DNA of 32,133 nucleotides from the IMG/VR virus record IMGVR_UViG_3300028030_000042, positions 1-32,133 of that record; one strand, 5' to 3'. This DNA is from a virus. This document shows, piece after piece, positions 1 through 32,133 of the stretch. How positions within the stretch are numbered: position 1 is the stretch's first letter; each line of letters starts with the position of its first letter. The notes under the pieces are model-generated. The model was not told where the DNA came from and did no database searches. It saw only the letters and a program-made list of their open reading frames with translations. A program made the translations under genes and the position numbers.

Positions 1-145
1 GTAATTCTTATAATAAATTTTAATAGAAAGAGGGAGGGTACATTATGATAGAAGCATTATTTGATACTTTACTTAAAGTTTTAAGGCAAGAGATAGGCAA
101 TCATCACGAAAATATTTGGATTGTTTTTGTTACAGGAGAGAAGAA
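1..145. repeat. Left copy of terminal direct repeat
   Basis: These bases match 31989-32133 except for A at 25 versus G at 32013. The repeat holds the last codons and TAA stop (21-23) of the YopX-like gene whose body lies at the right end, then the ribosome site GAGGGAGGG and the start of the gene at 45. The simplest reading is a circular or circularly permuted genome cut at an arbitrary point. A true short terminal repeat is also possible. Confidence 0.93.
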
Positions 146-3451: not shown

Positions 3452-4849
3452 ATGAAAAATTTTTTCGAGGTAGGAAAAAAATTTCCACCTGAAGAAGAGA
3501 ACGACAGATTCGAAATGTATGAAAAGAATCGTCTTCTTTATGAGAACGAGCACGATAGTGTGTTTTGGGGCTCTCGTACTACTATACTACAGGGCTCGAG
3601 TTACCAAAGGGAATTCAATTTGAATTTATTCAAAATTGCTTCGCGGGTATTTGCTGACCTTCTTTTCGGAGAGGAGCCAAAAATAAAACTTCCGGAGAAC
3701 CATCCTGCTACCGATTTTCTTTCTTCTTTCGTTCTTCAGACTCACTTCCAGGAAAAAATGTATTCAGTGGCTATTGATGTGCACAGATACGGCACAGGTA
3801 TAGCAAAAGTGTATATGGAAAATGGAAATGTATATGTGGAAGCAATTCCACCTACAGGATGGATACCTGTTTTCAATGACGGTCGACCGAAACAGGTAGC
3901 AGAGCATATTCTTTTCTCGGAAGTGAATGGTGTTCTCACTACAGAGGAACATCTTCCCGGGGCTGTAAGAGTTCAGCATTTTTCCGTGAGAAACGGAATC
4001 ATAGAGGAACTCCTGGACAGTGAAGAGAAAGCGACGGGAGTAAATGACTTCTTGGTAGTAGACTTCCAGAATTCTTTGGTATCAGACAGATATATAGGTT
4101 ATGATGAATATCGGGACATCGAAACTATAGTGGACGGGCTCGAAACGAGGTTCATTCAGAGAGCGAAAATCCTGGATTCACACTCGAATCCAGCGATGCA
4201 GGGTCCAGACTATTTGATAAAAAGGGACCCAATCACGGGAAAGGCGTATGTCGATGTAGGTGGTGGAAAGTATTTCCCTCGCAGCGGAGACGACCCTGAA
4301 GTGAAGTATATTACTTGGGACGGGAAACTCGAAGCAGTTCAGAAAGAGATAGATGACCTGGAAAGGATGTTTTATATTATTTCCGGAGTTTCCCCAGCAC
4401 TTTTAGGGATTATAAAGCCTGGACTTGCGGAAAGCGGTTCGGCTCTGAAAAGACTGCTAATACACACACTCGCAAAAGTGAACTCTTACAAAAAGATTTT
4501 CGATGTGAAAATGAAACAAGTCATTTCCATTGCTTCCGAGCTTGCAGTCGCAAATGGAGTTGAAGGAGCGAAAAAGATAGACATCACTGATGTCGTAATA
4601 GATTGGCAAGATGGAATCCCGAATGACTATACGCAGCAAGTTCAGGATGAATCGCTTGCAGTTTCCGCTGGTCTCACATCGAAACGCTCTGCTATGAAAA
4701 GGCTCTATGGACTCGATGGAAAGGCTCTCGATGCGGAAGAGAAACAGATACACCAGGAAGAACAGATAGAAAGGATTATTACGACAGCGGAAGCACCGTC
4801 TCTGAAGGAATCGATGGGATATATAGAGAAAAAAATAGGAAATGGATAG
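3452..4849 (+). CDS. Portal protein, SPP1 gp6-like
   Basis: A 465-residue portal that forms the dodecameric ring at the capsid vertex through which DNA enters and leaves. Position directly after the terminase, length, and the segment ISGVSPALLGIIKPGLAESG (about residues 311-330), followed by helices with ALKRLLIHTLAKV, fit the SPP1-type family. The early region carries the typical pattern RYGTGIAKVYMENG near residues 113-126. AAGGGGGT precedes the ATG. The end overlaps the MuF gene by eight bases, consistent with coupled synthesis of portal and minor head protein. Confidence 0.92.
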   Translation: MKNFFEVGKKFPPEEENDRFEMYEKNRLLYENEHDSVFWGSRTTILQGSSYQREFNLNLFKIASRVFADLLFGEEPKIKLPENHPATDFLSSFVLQTHFQEKMYSVAIDVHRYGTGIAKVYMENGNVYVEAIPPTGWIPVFNDGRPKQVAEHILFSEVNGVLTTEEHLPGAVRVQHFSVRNGIIEELLDSEEKATGVNDFLVVDFQNSLVSDRYIGYDEYRDIETIVDGLETRFIQRAKILDSHSNPAMQGPDYLIKRDPITGKAYVDVGGGKYFPRSGDDPEVKYITWDGKLEAVQKEIDDLERMFYIISGVSPALLGIIKPGLAESGSALKRLLIHTLAKVNSYKKIFDVKMKQVISIASELAVANGVEGAKKIDITDVVIDWQDGIPNDYTQQVQDESLAVSAGLTSKRSAMKRLYGLDGKALDAEEKQIHQEEQIERIITTAEAPSLKESMGYIEKKIGNG

Positions 4850-26995: not shown

Positions 26996-27706
26996 ATGCA
27001 ATATACCATCCTGGGTTTTAATCAGAAAAAAATGATAGAACTCGGTCTCGATGTAAAAGACGCTCTCATACTTCGATGGATGGTAGACTTTCAGAATACA
27101 GGGAAAATGAGGGAGCTCATCATAGACGGGAAGAAATACATATGGGTGAACTATTCTACCATCGTAGATGAGCTCCCTATTCTTGGATTTCAAAAAAAAT
27201 CTGTGATGCTTCACTTAGGAAAAATGGTGAAAGCCGGACTTTTGGAGAAATTCATCTACAAAAAAGCAGGGAACTTCACATTTTTCCATATAGTGGAGGA
27301 TGTCTACTATAGTCTCGTTTCAGACGGTGGAAAAAAATTTCCTACCTCTGAAAAAAATTTCCATAGGGTATGGAAAAAAATTTCCATAGGGTATGGAAAA
27401 AAATTGCAAGACATAGATTCTTCAATAAATGATTCTTCTATAAGTAATAATACTGTCACATACAAAAATGAAAAACTCGAAATTCCAGAACCATTCCTGA
27501 AAAAACTGAAAGAATCTTTTCCATCTATAGATGTAGAGAGTGAAATAAAAAAGATGGAAGCGTGGCTGCTTGCGAATCCGAAAAAAAGAAAAAAGAACTA
27601 CGCTCGTTTTATTGTGAACTGGCTTTCCCGGATTCAGAAGCCGGTAGGGAAACATTTCGAGCCGGAGCGTTATAATGGAAAAGAAGAGGTGAAATTCTAT
27701 GAGTGA
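26996..27706 (+). CDS. Replication initiator, DnaD-like winged helix
   Basis: A 236-residue protein. Residues 1-90 have the winged-helix plan of phage DnaD/initiator proteins: GLDVKDALILRWMVDFQNTG, then YIWVNYSTIVDELPILGFQK, then SVMLHLGKMVKAGLLEKFIY. A lysine-rich stretch around residues 110-140 is encoded by A-rich iterons (27329-27407). The C-terminal part (PFLKKLKESFPSIDVESEIK and NYARFIVNWLSRIQKP) matches the DnaD-like end that contacts the helicase loader. It precedes and overlaps that loader by eight bases. An origin inside the initiator gene is typical of lambda-like and related phages. Confidence 0.83.
   Translation: MQYTILGFNQKKMIELGLDVKDALILRWMVDFQNTGKMRELIIDGKKYIWVNYSTIVDELPILGFQKKSVMLHLGKMVKAGLLEKFIYKKAGNFTFFHIVEDVYYSLVSDGGKKFPTSEKNFHRVWKKISIGYGKKLQDIDSSINDSSISNNTVTYKNEKLEIPEPFLKKLKESFPSIDVESEIKKMEAWLLANPKKRKKNYARFIVNWLSRIQKPVGKHFEPERYNGKEEVKFYE
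27329..27407. other. Probable replication origin, four iterons
   Basis: GGAAAAAAATTTCC occurs at 27329-27342 and 27372-27385. Near-copies lie at 27350-27362 and 27395-27407. The spacing is 20, 23 and 23 bases, about two helical turns, so sites face the same side of the helix. Copies are joined by CCATAGGGTATGG, itself an inverted repeat (27361-27373, 27384-27396). AT-rich DNA (27418-27475) follows and could melt. All lies in the initiator gene. Confidence 0.78.
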
Positions 27707-28373
27707 AAAAAAGACTCCAGAAGAATTCTCAGAAGAGATTCGGAATCTTATAGAAGCGAATCGTTCAGAATACCAGAAAAGTCTTCAGAAAGCATATGAA
27801 AATATGCTTCGTGCGATTCCGTCGCATTTGGTGAGGGTTTTCGGGAACGGATACATTCAGAAATTTTCAGAGAAAGAAGTCATAGCACGAAAACATATTG
27901 AAAGAATCATTCCATCTATATTTTCCGGGGAAAAGGGACTTATTATTTCCGGGTCGGTTGGTGTCGGAAAGACGATGGCTATGATATATATCTACAAAAG
28001 ACTCCTCGAAATGAAAGCAAAAAAAGCTCTGGAATCTGAAGATATGTTTCTTCTGGATATATACAGGATGAAACAGGATTTCGCTTTCTATTATGTCCCC
28101 GAGATATTCACTGCTTTCCATATGGGGCAAAAGGTTTCCCTGAGAAAGTATATTTTCCTGGACGATTTTGGAACTGAATACTCCGAGCCTTTCGCACTTT
28201 CGAACTTCGACGCTTGGATAGAAAAAATCTATCGAAGGGGTTTCTACGGGATAGTGATGACTACGAATCTTTCACATCACGACTTTCTGAACAGACAGGG
28301 ATTCATTCGAATCTCAGATAGACTGAATCAGATGTGCGCTTTTTTAGAAGTGAAAGGGGCTTCCAGGAGATGA
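27699..28373 (+). CDS. DnaC/DnaI-like helicase loader
   Basis: A 224-residue AAA+ ATPase that would place the host replicative helicase at the phage origin. Walker A is GSVGVGKT at residues 85-92, Walker B is YIFLDDFG at 151-158, sensor 1 is MTTN at 187-190, and R208 in RISDRL is the likely arginine finger. The first 60 residues are helical and would contact the helicase. No helicase, polymerase or primase gene is seen, which fits recruitment of host proteins. It overlaps its neighbours by eight and four bases. Confidence 0.93.
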   Translation: MSEKKTPEEFSEEIRNLIEANRSEYQKSLQKAYENMLRAIPSHLVRVFGNGYIQKFSEKEVIARKHIERIIPSIFSGEKGLIISGSVGVGKTMAMIYIYKRLLEMKAKKALESEDMFLLDIYRMKQDFAFYYVPEIFTAFHMGQKVSLRKYIFLDDFGTEYSEPFALSNFDAWIEKIYRRGFYGIVMTTNLSHHDFLNRQGFIRISDRLNQMCAFLEVKGASRR

Positions 28374-28645
28374 GCCAATTTGTAGAGTATATTTACTATG
28401 TCGAGAGAGCGTATCCTGAAATCCGAAAGTATCCGCTTCCAAAGGAAAAAAGAATCGTGTCTGTTTTTAGGCAGCTCTATGCCATATTTGATTCTCCGCT
28501 TGCTTTCGCCGCTGTGCATTCTATTCAGGATTTAAAGGATGTTTTGAAATCAAGGCAACGGGGACTGAAATACAATCACATCACGGAAGACGACATCGAA
28601 ATTGCTTGCACATTGTTTTATAGAAAGGAGATTGAAAAAATATGA
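28370..28645 (+). CDS. Hypothetical early protein after helicase loader
   Basis: A 91-residue helical protein (SQFVEYIYYVERAYPEIRKY, then KRIVSVFRQLYAIFDSPLAF, then HITEDDIEIACTLFY). ATG 28370 is chosen as ATGA overlap with the loader. The alternative at 28334 would overlap by 40 bases. It is not recognised. Its alpha-helical pattern and place suggest a replication accessory protein or a partner of the loader. Confidence 0.7.
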   Translation: MSQFVEYIYYVERAYPEIRKYPLPKEKRIVSVFRQLYAIFDSPLAFAAVHSIQDLKDVLKSRQRGLKYNHITEDDIEIACTLFYRKEIEKI

Positions 28646-29259
28646 TTTTGCTGAGGAGGTTATTTGAAGATGGTTACACATTTTATCACAAATATAATAA
28701 TAAATACGAGGCTCTTATGAAAGCGAAAAGTAGAAGAAAGAAAAAACATAGAGCCCGAGTTGTGAAGGTCGGAGATTACTATGAAGTGTGGGAAAAGAAG
28801 CCTCCGAAAAAAAGAGAGAAAAAGAAACTTATTAAAGAGAATGACATTTTATGGTCTCTTATAGTTCGGAAAAGGGATGGATATGTATGTCAGCTCTGTA
28901 GGTATTTTTTTGAAACGGGAGTGAAAGATGAGGAGCCTATACCTTCGAAATATATGGCTGCGCATCATATTTTTGGGCGTTCGAAAAAAGCAACTCGATG
29001 GGACACACGGAATGGAATCACTCTTTGTTATTACCACCATAGATTCTATATTCACGGTGGGAAAATGACGCCTTCCGAGATGGCGGAATTTTATGAGTGG
29101 TTTCTTGGGAAAGATACATATGAGGAACTCGAGCAGAAATCCCGGGAAACTGTGCGATTTAATTACGATTTTGTGAAGGAATGGAATGAAAAACTCAGAG
29201 AGGAATTCGAAATGACTTTTGGAAAAACTTTTGAAGAATGGAAAAAAGAAAGGAGATGA
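28642..29259 (+). CDS. HNH endonuclease
   Basis: A 205-residue protein. Residues 1-75 are highly basic. The HNH centre spans about residues 80-140: CQLC (C83, C86), AAHHIFGRS (H108, H109), TRNGITLC (N124, C129), and YYHHRFYIHG (H132, H133, H138). Zinc is probably held by the Cys/His set, with H109, N124 and H133 as the catalytic trio. Such phage enzymes cut DNA in recombination, replication or homing. Placement within the replication operon argues for phage DNA processing, not a homing insert. It overlaps the preceding gene by four bases. Confidence 0.9.
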   Translation: MILLRRLFEDGYTFYHKYNNKYEALMKAKSRRKKKHRARVVKVGDYYEVWEKKPPKKREKKKLIKENDILWSLIVRKRDGYVCQLCRYFFETGVKDEEPIPSKYMAAHHIFGRSKKATRWDTRNGITLCYYHHRFYIHGGKMTPSEMAEFYEWFLGKDTYEELEQKSRETVRFNYDFVKEWNEKLREEFEMTFGKTFEEWKKERR

Positions 29260-29264
29260 GAAGT

Positions 29265-29456
29265 ATGAAGAAAAAAGATTTGAAGAGGCTTTTGGTAGGT
29301 TTCGTGTTCTTCCCAGATGAGAGTATCAGAAAGCAGCTCGAAAAAGAAGGGATGCTTCATAGGGGAATTGAACTCAGAAAAGTAGTGATGGAATTTGCAG
29401 AAAACGAAGCGAAAAAGTATGTCGTAGGTGAGAAAGATGGAATACTACAGAGATGA
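29265..29456 (+). CDS. Small charged helical protein
   Basis: A 63-residue protein: KKKDLKRLLVGFVFFPDESI, then KQLEKEGMLHRGIELRKVVM, ending EKDGILQR. It is predicted helical and unrecognised. ATG 29265 follows GAAAGGAGATGAGAAGT, the leader also used at 24841. The in-frame ATG at 29238 lies in the HNH gene and has no ribosome site. The end overlaps the methyltransferase by 20 bases. Confidence 0.68.
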   Translation: MKKKDLKRLLVGFVFFPDESIRKQLEKEGMLHRGIELRKVVMEFAENEAKKYVVGEKDGILQR

Positions 29457-30405
29457 CACTGGTGTGATATACCAGGGAGATGCCCGCACTATTTTGAGGG
29501 CTCTTCCAAAGGAAAGCGTTGATACTGTAGTGACATCTCCTCCGTATTGGCAGCTCAGGGATTACGGTATAGAGGGGCAGCTCGGCCTGGAAGAGTCTTT
29601 TGAAACCTATCTTCAGAAACTGTGGGATATATTTGACGAGGTTTATAGGGTATTGAAAAAGTCGGGTTCGGTGTGGGTCGTTCTGGGTGACACATATAAC
29701 GGAAACAAAAAAGGAAAAACAGATATGCTGGTAAAGAACTATCTCCGAGAGACATCAGAAAAAATAGAGAAAAAGAAGATTTCGAATCTGAAACCGAAAA
29801 CACTTCTTCTTATCCCTCATAGGTTCGCTATAGGGATGATAGAAAGAGGGTGGATACTCCGGAATGACATCATATGGAGGAAACCGAATGCGATGCCTTC
29901 CAGTGTGAAAGACAGATTCACTGTAGACTATGAGCATATATTCTTTTTCGTAAAGAGGAAAAAATACTATTTCCATCAGGTTTTCGACCCGTTCCGAGAC
30001 ACTACGATGCAGAGAATCGAGCATCAATTCAACAAAACGAAAAGCGAAAAAGAGTCGATAAAAGTATCTGGGGTTCGGCGTTTCGTGGCAAATGTGAAGG
30101 CGGGAAGGCTTCCCGGAAGAAACCGGCGTGCGGTGTGGGACATCTCTACGAAGGCTTTTCACGAACTTCATTTTGCAGTTTATCCTCCTTCTATACCTGC
30201 GAGGTGTATAGAAGCGGGATGCCCTCAGGGGGGGGTGGTGCTGGACCCGTTTTTTGGAAGTGGCACGACGGGATATGTAGCGAAGAAAATGGGATGCCGT
30301 TGGATAGGAATTGAGCTGAATCCGGCTTATTGTGTGATTGCAAAGAAGCGTGTGAAAAGTGTCCCGAAACATCTTTTCTTGGAGGTGGAGAGTGAAAACA
30401 GATAA
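29437..30405 (+). CDS. DNA methyltransferase (N4-cytosine or N6-adenine, beta order)
   Basis: A 322-residue S-adenosylmethionine-dependent enzyme. The catalytic motif is TSPPYW (S34-Y37) and the cofactor motif DPFFGSGTT is at residues 270-278, so the order is that of the beta class. Between them, residues 100-255 form the probable target-recognition region (NDIIWRKPNAMPSSVKDRF; RRAVWDISTKAFHELHFAVY). SPPY favours N4-cytosine, but N6-adenine enzymes can have it. No restriction nuclease gene pairs with it, so protection of phage DNA from host restriction is likely. ATG 29437 is preferred over GTG 29428, as AGGTG is six bases upstream. Confidence 0.92.
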   Translation: MEYYRDDTGVIYQGDARTILRALPKESVDTVVTSPPYWQLRDYGIEGQLGLEESFETYLQKLWDIFDEVYRVLKKSGSVWVVLGDTYNGNKKGKTDMLVKNYLRETSEKIEKKKISNLKPKTLLLIPHRFAIGMIERGWILRNDIIWRKPNAMPSSVKDRFTVDYEHIFFFVKRKKYYFHQVFDPFRDTTMQRIEHQFNKTKSEKESIKVSGVRRFVANVKAGRLPGRNRRAVWDISTKAFHELHFAVYPPSIPARCIEAGCPQGGVVLDPFFGSGTTGYVAKKMGCRWIGIELNPAYCVIAKKRVKSVPKHLFLEVESENR

Positions 30406-30688
30406 AGAAAAAAGACGCATCAGGAACGAGAGAGCAAAAAAATGGTATAGAGAGCACTGGGAAGAAGCGAAGCGTAAAAAACGGGAATATATGAGAAGAA
30501 ATAGAGAAAAATTCCGTGCATATGCGAAAAAGTATTATAGAGAGCACCGGGAAAAATTTCTGAGGTATAATCACGAATACTATAAAAAGAAGAAGGAAGA
30601 AAGGAAAAAAATAGCGGAAGACCCTTTCGCATATTGGGATGCCGCACTGCAAGAAAAAGAAAGAAAGGAGAGTGAGAAATGTGGATAA
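30392..30688 (+). CDS. Arg/Tyr-rich repeat protein
   Basis: A 98-residue, very basic protein with short helical repeats: KKWYREHWEEAKRKKREYMR, RRNREKFRAYAKKYYREHRE, KFLRYNHEYYKKKKEERKKI. Tyr or Trp, Arg and Glu recur every 10-12 residues. Similar repeats occur in small phage proteins linked to HNH or AP2 families as DNA-contacting tails. GTG 30392 is chosen because GGAGGTGGAG lies just upstream. It overlaps the methyltransferase end by 14 bases. Binding to nucleic acid is likely but not proven. Confidence 0.75.
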   Translation: MKTDKEKRRIRNERAKKWYREHWEEAKRKKREYMRRNREKFRAYAKKYYREHREKFLRYNHEYYKKKKEERKKIAEDPFAYWDAALQEKERKESEKCG

Positions 30689-31538: not shown

Positions 31539-32011
31539 ATATTGCAACTAATTTATTAAAAGGTTGGAATGAAGAAAGGGGAATGTGGGTATATGGAAGT
31601 TTAGTTGTAGAAGCAATCCAGAATAAAAAAAATTATTACATTGCAGATTTGGATGTGAGGGTAGATATAGAAGACGATGCGAGCGCCTTTTTGCAAGGTC
31701 TTTATAAAGTTGACCCTGTGAGTGTCAGTCAATTTACAGGATTTTTTGACGATACAGGGTGGGATACACTCACAGTGGAAGATAAGGAGGTTTATAAATG
31801 GCTGTATGATACATTAGGCTTACAGTTGTGGAGAGGGCAACTGATTTTTGGAGGCGATATATTAGATGGCGTAGATGCTTTTGATGAACAGATAAGAGGA
31901 AAAGTATATTGGAATATAAATGGTTGGTATGTGGGTGGTAATTTTAATAATTACCTGAATGAAATAATATTGCCTCATTATGTAGTCGGTAATTCTTATA
32001 ATAAATTTTAA
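31535..32011 (+). CDS. YopX-like protein
   Basis: A 158-residue protein. LKGWNEERGMWVYGSLVVEA near residues 8-27, YYIADLDVRVD, then VDPVSVSQFTGFFDDTGW near residues 60-77 recall the YopX family (FRxWD...WVYG...VDPETVGQFTGLxDKNG). The later part, with GQLIFGGDILDGVDAFDEQI, would match the GDIV strand. The segment between is longer than usual. YopX proteins are widespread in phages and have no settled function. AGGAGGT precedes the start. Its stop lies in the terminal repeat and so also appears at 21-23. Confidence 0.76.
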   Translation: MNIATNLLKGWNEERGMWVYGSLVVEAIQNKKNYYIADLDVRVDIEDDASAFLQGLYKVDPVSVSQFTGFFDDTGWDTLTVEDKEVYKWLYDTLGLQLWRGQLIFGGDILDGVDAFDEQIRGKVYWNINGWYVGGNFNNYLNEIILPHYVVGNSYNKF

Positions 32012-32133
32012 TGGAAAGAGGGAGGGTACATTATGATAGAAGCATTATTTGATACTTTACTTAAAGTTTTAAGGCAAGAGATAGGCAATCATCACGAAAA
32101 TATTTGGATTGTTTTTGTTACAGGAGAGAAGAA
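31989..32133. repeat. Right copy of terminal direct repeat
   Basis: These bases match 1-145 except for one (G 32013 versus A 25). The copy includes the end of the YopX-like gene, an intact ribosome site, and the first 33 codons of the small barrel gene. A difference within the repeat shows that the copies come from at least two molecules, or that two real copies have diverged. Confidence 0.93.
32033..32133 (+). CDS. Partial second copy of gene at 45
   Basis: These are the first 33 codons of the gene at 45, cut by the window end. It is not a separate gene if the genome is circular. The reading frame and ribosome site are identical to the left copy. Confidence 0.85.
   Translation, partial: MIEALFDTLLKVLRQEIGNHHENIWIVFVTGEK

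Follow-up and report, generated by a model that had tools for sequence, protein, structure and literature searches.

A probable replication origin inside the initiator gene of a small uncultured phage, within a family that pairs varied iterons with a winged-helix domain

The window analyzed here, the whole stretch of 32,133 bases covering positions 1 to 32,133 of IMG/VR virus record IMGVR_UViG_3300028030_000042, is from a small, uncultured tailed phage. It encodes a terminase, a portal, a minor head, a major head, and a tail protein and an endolysin-like protein, along with a DnaC-like loader, an HNH/NinG-like nuclease, and a DNA methyltransferase. The two ends of the contig share 145 bp, apart from a single mismatch (window 1-145 against 31989-32133), indicating a genome that is either circular, as a preliminary description of this DNA had assumed, or circularly permuted, and the circle would therefore comprise about 31,988 bp. 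No close relative of the phage was found in the collections searched, the best relatives recovered with the portal or tail protein as the query being only 27-43% identical, and the initiator profile found no match in eight records of portal relatives, some of which are fragments. At the locus of interest, a gene for a putative replication initiator (P0001) is directly followed by, and overlaps by 8 nt, the gene for the DnaC-like helicase loader that the preliminary description had placed there (Table 1). Just past the loader region, at 28642-30405, lie the HNH/NinG-like nuclease gene and, after it, the gene for an N6/N4 DNA methyltransferase.

P0001 is predicted to consist of a winged-helix N-terminal domain, a disordered linker, and a helical C-terminal domain, and the predicted linker is the part of the protein coded by the iterons and AT-rich repeats described below. 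Searches with P0001 returned no match in Pfam, no meaningful match in NCBIfam, a weak match to PHROG 11527 (unknown function), and no match among replisome-organizer family models or to the C-terminal domain of Phg_2220_C/TIGR02220 replication proteins. Among the distant relatives recovered by tblastn, those in phages of Campylobacter and Tetrasphaera are annotated as RepO or replication initiation protein and that in a Pseudomonas phage as a primosomal protein, while a Fusobacterium relative, annotated as hypothetical, adjoins a replication initiation protein gene. In the PDB, the P0001 model finds weak structural matches, most of them to winged-helix regulators such as ArsR, and the top match in the viral library is the relative from Tetrasphaera phage TJE1. 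The part of the gene coding for the winged helix also contains, at 27110-27178, a perfect 12-bp inverted repeat, AGGGAGCTCATC / GATGAGCTCCCT, with its arms 45 nt apart.

Table 1. Features of the initiator locus, in window coordinates or residues of P0001
Feature	Position	Strand	Sequence or basis
Replication initiator gene, 236 aa (P0001)	26996..27706	+	Phage relatives (tblastn) annotated as RepO or replication initiation protein
Winged-helix N-terminal domain (predicted)	aa 1-110 of P0001		AlphaFold2, 46 homologues; pLDDT mostly above 90
Disordered linker (predicted)	aa 111-164 of P0001		AlphaFold2
Helical C-terminal domain (predicted)	aa 165-213 of P0001		AlphaFold2
Iteron 1	27329..27342	+	GGAAAAAAATTTCC, exact
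Iteron 2	27349..27362	+	TGAAAAAAATTTCC, 1 mismatch to GGAAAAAAATTTCC
Inverted repeat CCATA-GGG-TATGG	27361..27373		CCATAGGGTATGG; links iterons 2 and 3
Iteron 3	27372..27385	+	GGAAAAAAATTTCC, exact; inside palindrome TATGGAAA-AAAA-TTTCCATA
Inverted repeat CCATA-GGG-TATGG	27384..27396		CCATAGGGTATGG; links iterons 3 and 4
Iteron 4	27395..27408	+	GGAAAAAAATTGCA, 2 mismatches, ends TTGCA; weakest copy
AT-rich stretch between iterons and C-terminal-domain coding part	27409..27475		Base composition
Tandem 15-bp AT-rich repeats (proposed duplex-unwinding element)	27416..27445	+	GATTCTTC(A/T)ATAA(A/G)T
DnaC-like helicase loader gene	27699..28373	+	PHROG 3277 (E 1e-12), PHROG 50, NCBIfam PRK08116

The four iterons, which bear out the earlier claim of four GGAAAAAAATTTCC-type sites at a spacing of 20-23 bases linked by inverted repeats, begin at nt 334 of the initiator gene, advance in start-to-start steps of 20, 23, and 23, and all lie within the open reading frame, between the coding parts for the predicted DNA-binding and C-terminal domains. 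They are imperfect inverted repeats about two helical turns apart. Among direct repeats with a spacing of 12-60 in the whole window, the longest is a 33-nt identical run at a shift of 23, starting at 27350, and the runner-up, at 15 nt, falls in the same array. The longest run in 500 synonymous-codon shuffles of the initiator gene was 20 nt, so that none reached 33 nt. A looser test, using 12-mers with at most two mismatches, did not separate the window from shuffles (83/200), a consequence of the many AAA lysine codons in the gene. As the iteron spacing is not a multiple of three, the same DNA gives different peptides in the four copies (GKKFP, EKNFH, WKKIS, and GKKLQ), and the fact that the copies are read in all three frames implies that selection acts on the DNA. 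One further exact copy of the iteron core occurs at 3473-3486, near the start of the portal gene, as part of a 42-bp stretch that matches the origin region at 83% in inverted orientation. This copy was rejected as a second origin: it encodes the G-x-x-(F/Y/W)-P-P start of the portal protein, and in eight portal relatives the protein motif is kept and the DNA is not. The copy is thus probably a coincidence, despite only about 0.008 exact core copies per strand being expected by chance.

On the loader side, the array adjoins AT-rich DNA, as had been claimed, with the first 60 nt after it being 77% AT compared with 63% for the gene, and this stretch contains the tandem repeats for which a role in unwinding is proposed. 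Two other expectations did not hold. A switch in GC skew near 27.4 kb is absent, both overall and at fourfold sites: cumulative skew rises monotonically, with the genes on the plus strand, and fourfold-site skew is positive throughout the window, a test that has little power here because all of the genes are on one strand. The best arc of change in fourfold skew lies at 29.8-30.7 kb (P 0.05), and over the methyltransferase gene, at 29784-30683, fourfold sites are 89% G compared with 61% elsewhere (P 0.05). Nor is strong bending of the array supported, its predicted curvature in a wedge model being ordinary (72nd/64th percentile). By the preliminary description, the lack of a skew or depth signal, together with the absence of the repeats from close relatives sharing the initiator, would have refuted the origin. 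The results do not amount to this refutation: the skew switch is absent, but close relatives were not found, and in distant relatives, the exact iteron sequence changes and the array stays.

These distant relatives form an initiator family of considerable breadth. A search with three N-terminal domains as queries recovered 62 viral and 21 genome loci, most of the latter clostridial and two from spirochaetes, and removal of near-duplicates left 61 initiator genes, including that of the window. At least three iterons are present in 41 of these 61 genes compared with 40 of 305 synonymous shuffles, the remaining 20 lacking a clear array with the method used. The arrays start at a median of nt 344, with steps of 20-25 bp that are spread evenly modulo 3. 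In one relative (L073:1454-1630), the iterons number eight, double what is usual, and follow one another at an unchanging step of 23 bp. No distant extra copies were found in three records of relatives. The iteron sequences vary from member to member (TCGGA..TCCGA, TACGGTAAAAATACCG, CGACTCAAAAGTCG, GGACAAAATGTCC, and others) on a common plan of inverted half-sites around a mostly A/T center, with a mean of 4.48 of 6 arm pairs forming dyads compared with 3.19 for column shuffles, and centers that are 79% AT.

Across the family, iteron similarity is correlated with how similar the N-terminal domains are (Mantel r 0.34, P 0.0015), and it remains so when the C-terminal domain is controlled for (partial Mantel r 0.32, P 0.0005), whereas it shows no correlation with the C-terminal domain once the N-terminal one is controlled for (partial Mantel r -0.01). 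This is the covariation expected if the N-terminal domain reads the iterons, and part of it could stem from linkage, the iterons and the DNA-binding domain being near each other in one gene. The C-terminal domains are diverse, with Phg_2220_C found in 11 of 46 aligned members, and the N-terminal domain, iterons, and AT-rich part therefore appear to travel as one unit joined to different C-terminal modules. At one Clostridium magnum locus (L091:3001-4170), a single frame joins the initiator to DnaC-like loader sequence, possibly a natural initiator-loader fusion or a frameshift.

An element akin to the tandem repeats of the window is enriched at the same place across the family. This second repeat has the core TCTA(C/T)TA on the coding strand just past the array, in a context like AAAgATTC(A/T)TCTA(C/T)TAAA. 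In the 90 nt after the 41 arrays, TCTA[CT][TA] matches 60 times, compared with an expectation of 3.4 based on the remainder of these genes and with a mean of 15.5 and a maximum of 25 in synonymous shuffles, while its reverse complement matches only seven times in the same regions. Twelve of the 60 matches lie in a second reading frame, and enrichment on one strand and in two frames implies that the element is selected as DNA and is strand-specific. When a strict tandem form of the motif was used as the query over viral contigs, all seven matches belonged to this initiator family; a loose form returned 60 stretches, mostly chance, and those with at least three upstream iterons were all in this family or a truncated member.

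The strand-specific repeat after the iterons is new here and may mark the site of strand opening. Its resemblance to elements of bacterial origins is a lead rather than a demonstration. The DnaA-trio has been given as 3'-(G/A)AT-5' (PMC10797057) or 3'-GAT-5' (PMC8287927), and in Bacillus subtilis oriC, the DnaD recognition element (DRE) lies opposite the trios (PMC10201434). The complement of the core, 3'-AGAT(G/A)AT-5', amounts to two trios in a row, and its top strand carries TnnT repeats like those of the DRE. Paired trios occur 50 times in the family regions, compared with 8.9 (rest of the gene) and 13.2 expected and a shuffle maximum of 19, and on the opposite strand this doublet shows no enrichment (29 compared with 24.4 in shuffles). 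The window itself fits the trio reading weakly, its pair GATTCTTCAATAAAT and GATTCTTCTATAAGT having at most one canonical GAT trio per copy. A DnaA-box with at most one mismatch was found in only 4 of the 41 family regions and not at the window array. In lambda gene O (L108:619-690), there is exactly one CTATTA-type doublet, 12 bp past iteron 4, the position at which the second repeat of the family lies. A bolder reading is that the family couples phage-specific iterons to an unwinding element copying the oriC code of the host, with trios on one strand and TnnT/DRE on the other, so that the initiator either opens the DNA itself or hands over to host DnaA/DnaD through the host's own single-strand motif, the lambda CTATTA being the same element; we consider this unlikely as it stands.

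Taken together, three lines of evidence accord with an origin located within the initiator gene, namely the anatomy of the locus, the retention of iterons at the same gene position in 41 of the 61 diverse members of the family, and the way in which iterons and DNA-binding domain vary together, and we consider it highly probable that the array region, in the linker-coding part of this gene, is the replication origin of the phage, as had been proposed. By analogy with lambda, the winged-helix domain, probably as a dimer, would bind each of the four iterons at half-sites GGAAA/TTTCC about an A-tract center, about two helical turns apart. Initiators on the iterons would then assemble an O-some-like complex that opens the adjacent AT-rich tandem repeats (27416-27445), and the C-terminal domain would recruit the DnaC-like loader encoded by the next gene, which would bring the replicative helicase.

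Other roles for the array fare much less well. The weak structural similarity of the winged-helix domain to ArsR/MarR-type regulators would suit autoregulatory operators, bound by a repressor or regulator inside its own gene and having no origin function, but the array lies some 330 nt into the gene, with the conserved AT-rich second repeat after it, the next gene in the window is that of the helicase loader, and relatives are annotated as RepO or replication initiation protein, all of which makes this explanation very improbable. There is even less reason to favor a role in partition, with the array as a centromere-like site for a winged-helix protein of the TubR/ParR type: iterons occur in partition sites as well, and TubR is among the weak structural matches (rank 28), but no partition motor gene was recognized among the neighboring genes searched, the next gene encodes a DnaC-like loader, and across the family the array is inside the gene rather than upstream of it. 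Repetition at the protein level in the linker, with no function of the DNA, would accord with the disordered, lysine-rich nature of this segment and with the loose k-mer result, but it has just as little to recommend it given copies in three frames that encode different peptides, a 33-nt run beyond the reach of the shuffles, and family spacings that are even modulo 3.

An origin inside the initiator gene on a lambda-like plan is of a known kind, although the initiator family here is not one named by Pfam; its interest beyond the ordinary lies in the many pairs of domain and iterons that vary together and in the strand-specific repeat that the family shares downstream of the array. The lambda layout, in which the origin is coded in the linker of the initiator, is thus kept in a family for which no similarity to lambda O could be detected and whose members come from clostridial and spirochaete genomes as well as from Campylobacter, Tetrasphaera, and Pseudomonas phages. 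The dozens of natural pairs of DNA-binding domain and iteron constitute a data set for DNA recognition by winged-helix initiators and a means of locating origins in phages that have not been cultured, and the shared downstream repeat provides a concrete sequence for tests of origin opening.

Among known systems, lambda ori is the closest in plan. The lambda O protein binds to a set of four iterons located midway through its own gene, and the minimal fragment for unwinding comprises two iterons and the AT-rich tract (PMC7466680), while lambda P brings DnaB (PMC3985674). Examined with the same tools, the lambda array begins at nt 349 of its initiator gene and proceeds in steps of 20, 24, and 23, compared with nt 334 and steps of 20, 23, and 23 in the window, and the two loci share an initiator gene followed by a loader gene, four mid-gene iterons, dyad half-sites about an A-tract, and an AT-rich flank on the loader side. 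They differ in that the iteron sequence of the window is unrelated and its loader is DnaC-like, and no homology between P0001 and lambda O was detected (BLASTP E 11; hhalign probability 0.1%; no match to PF04492, Phage_rep_O). On this comparison, the window origin would work like lambda ori, with an initiator outside the lambda O protein family. In Francisella phage KIRK, the replication gene 43, which encodes a Phg_2220_C protein, has been proposed from one genome to contain a lambda-like origin comprising four repeated sites (PMC7924643), and P0001 lacks the Phg_2220_C match that 11 of the 46 aligned family members have. In SPP1, a phage initiator and a phage loader likewise start theta replication, at oriL with the replisome organizer G38P and the loader G39P (PMC5615212), whereas P0001 matches no replisome-organizer family model. 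Finally, the bacterial basal unwinding system has the same succession of double-strand sites, a short spacer, and then a strand-specific repeat (PMC8287927, PMC10201434), but in the phage family the iterons stand where DnaA-boxes would be, and no copy in the window contains more than one GAT trio.
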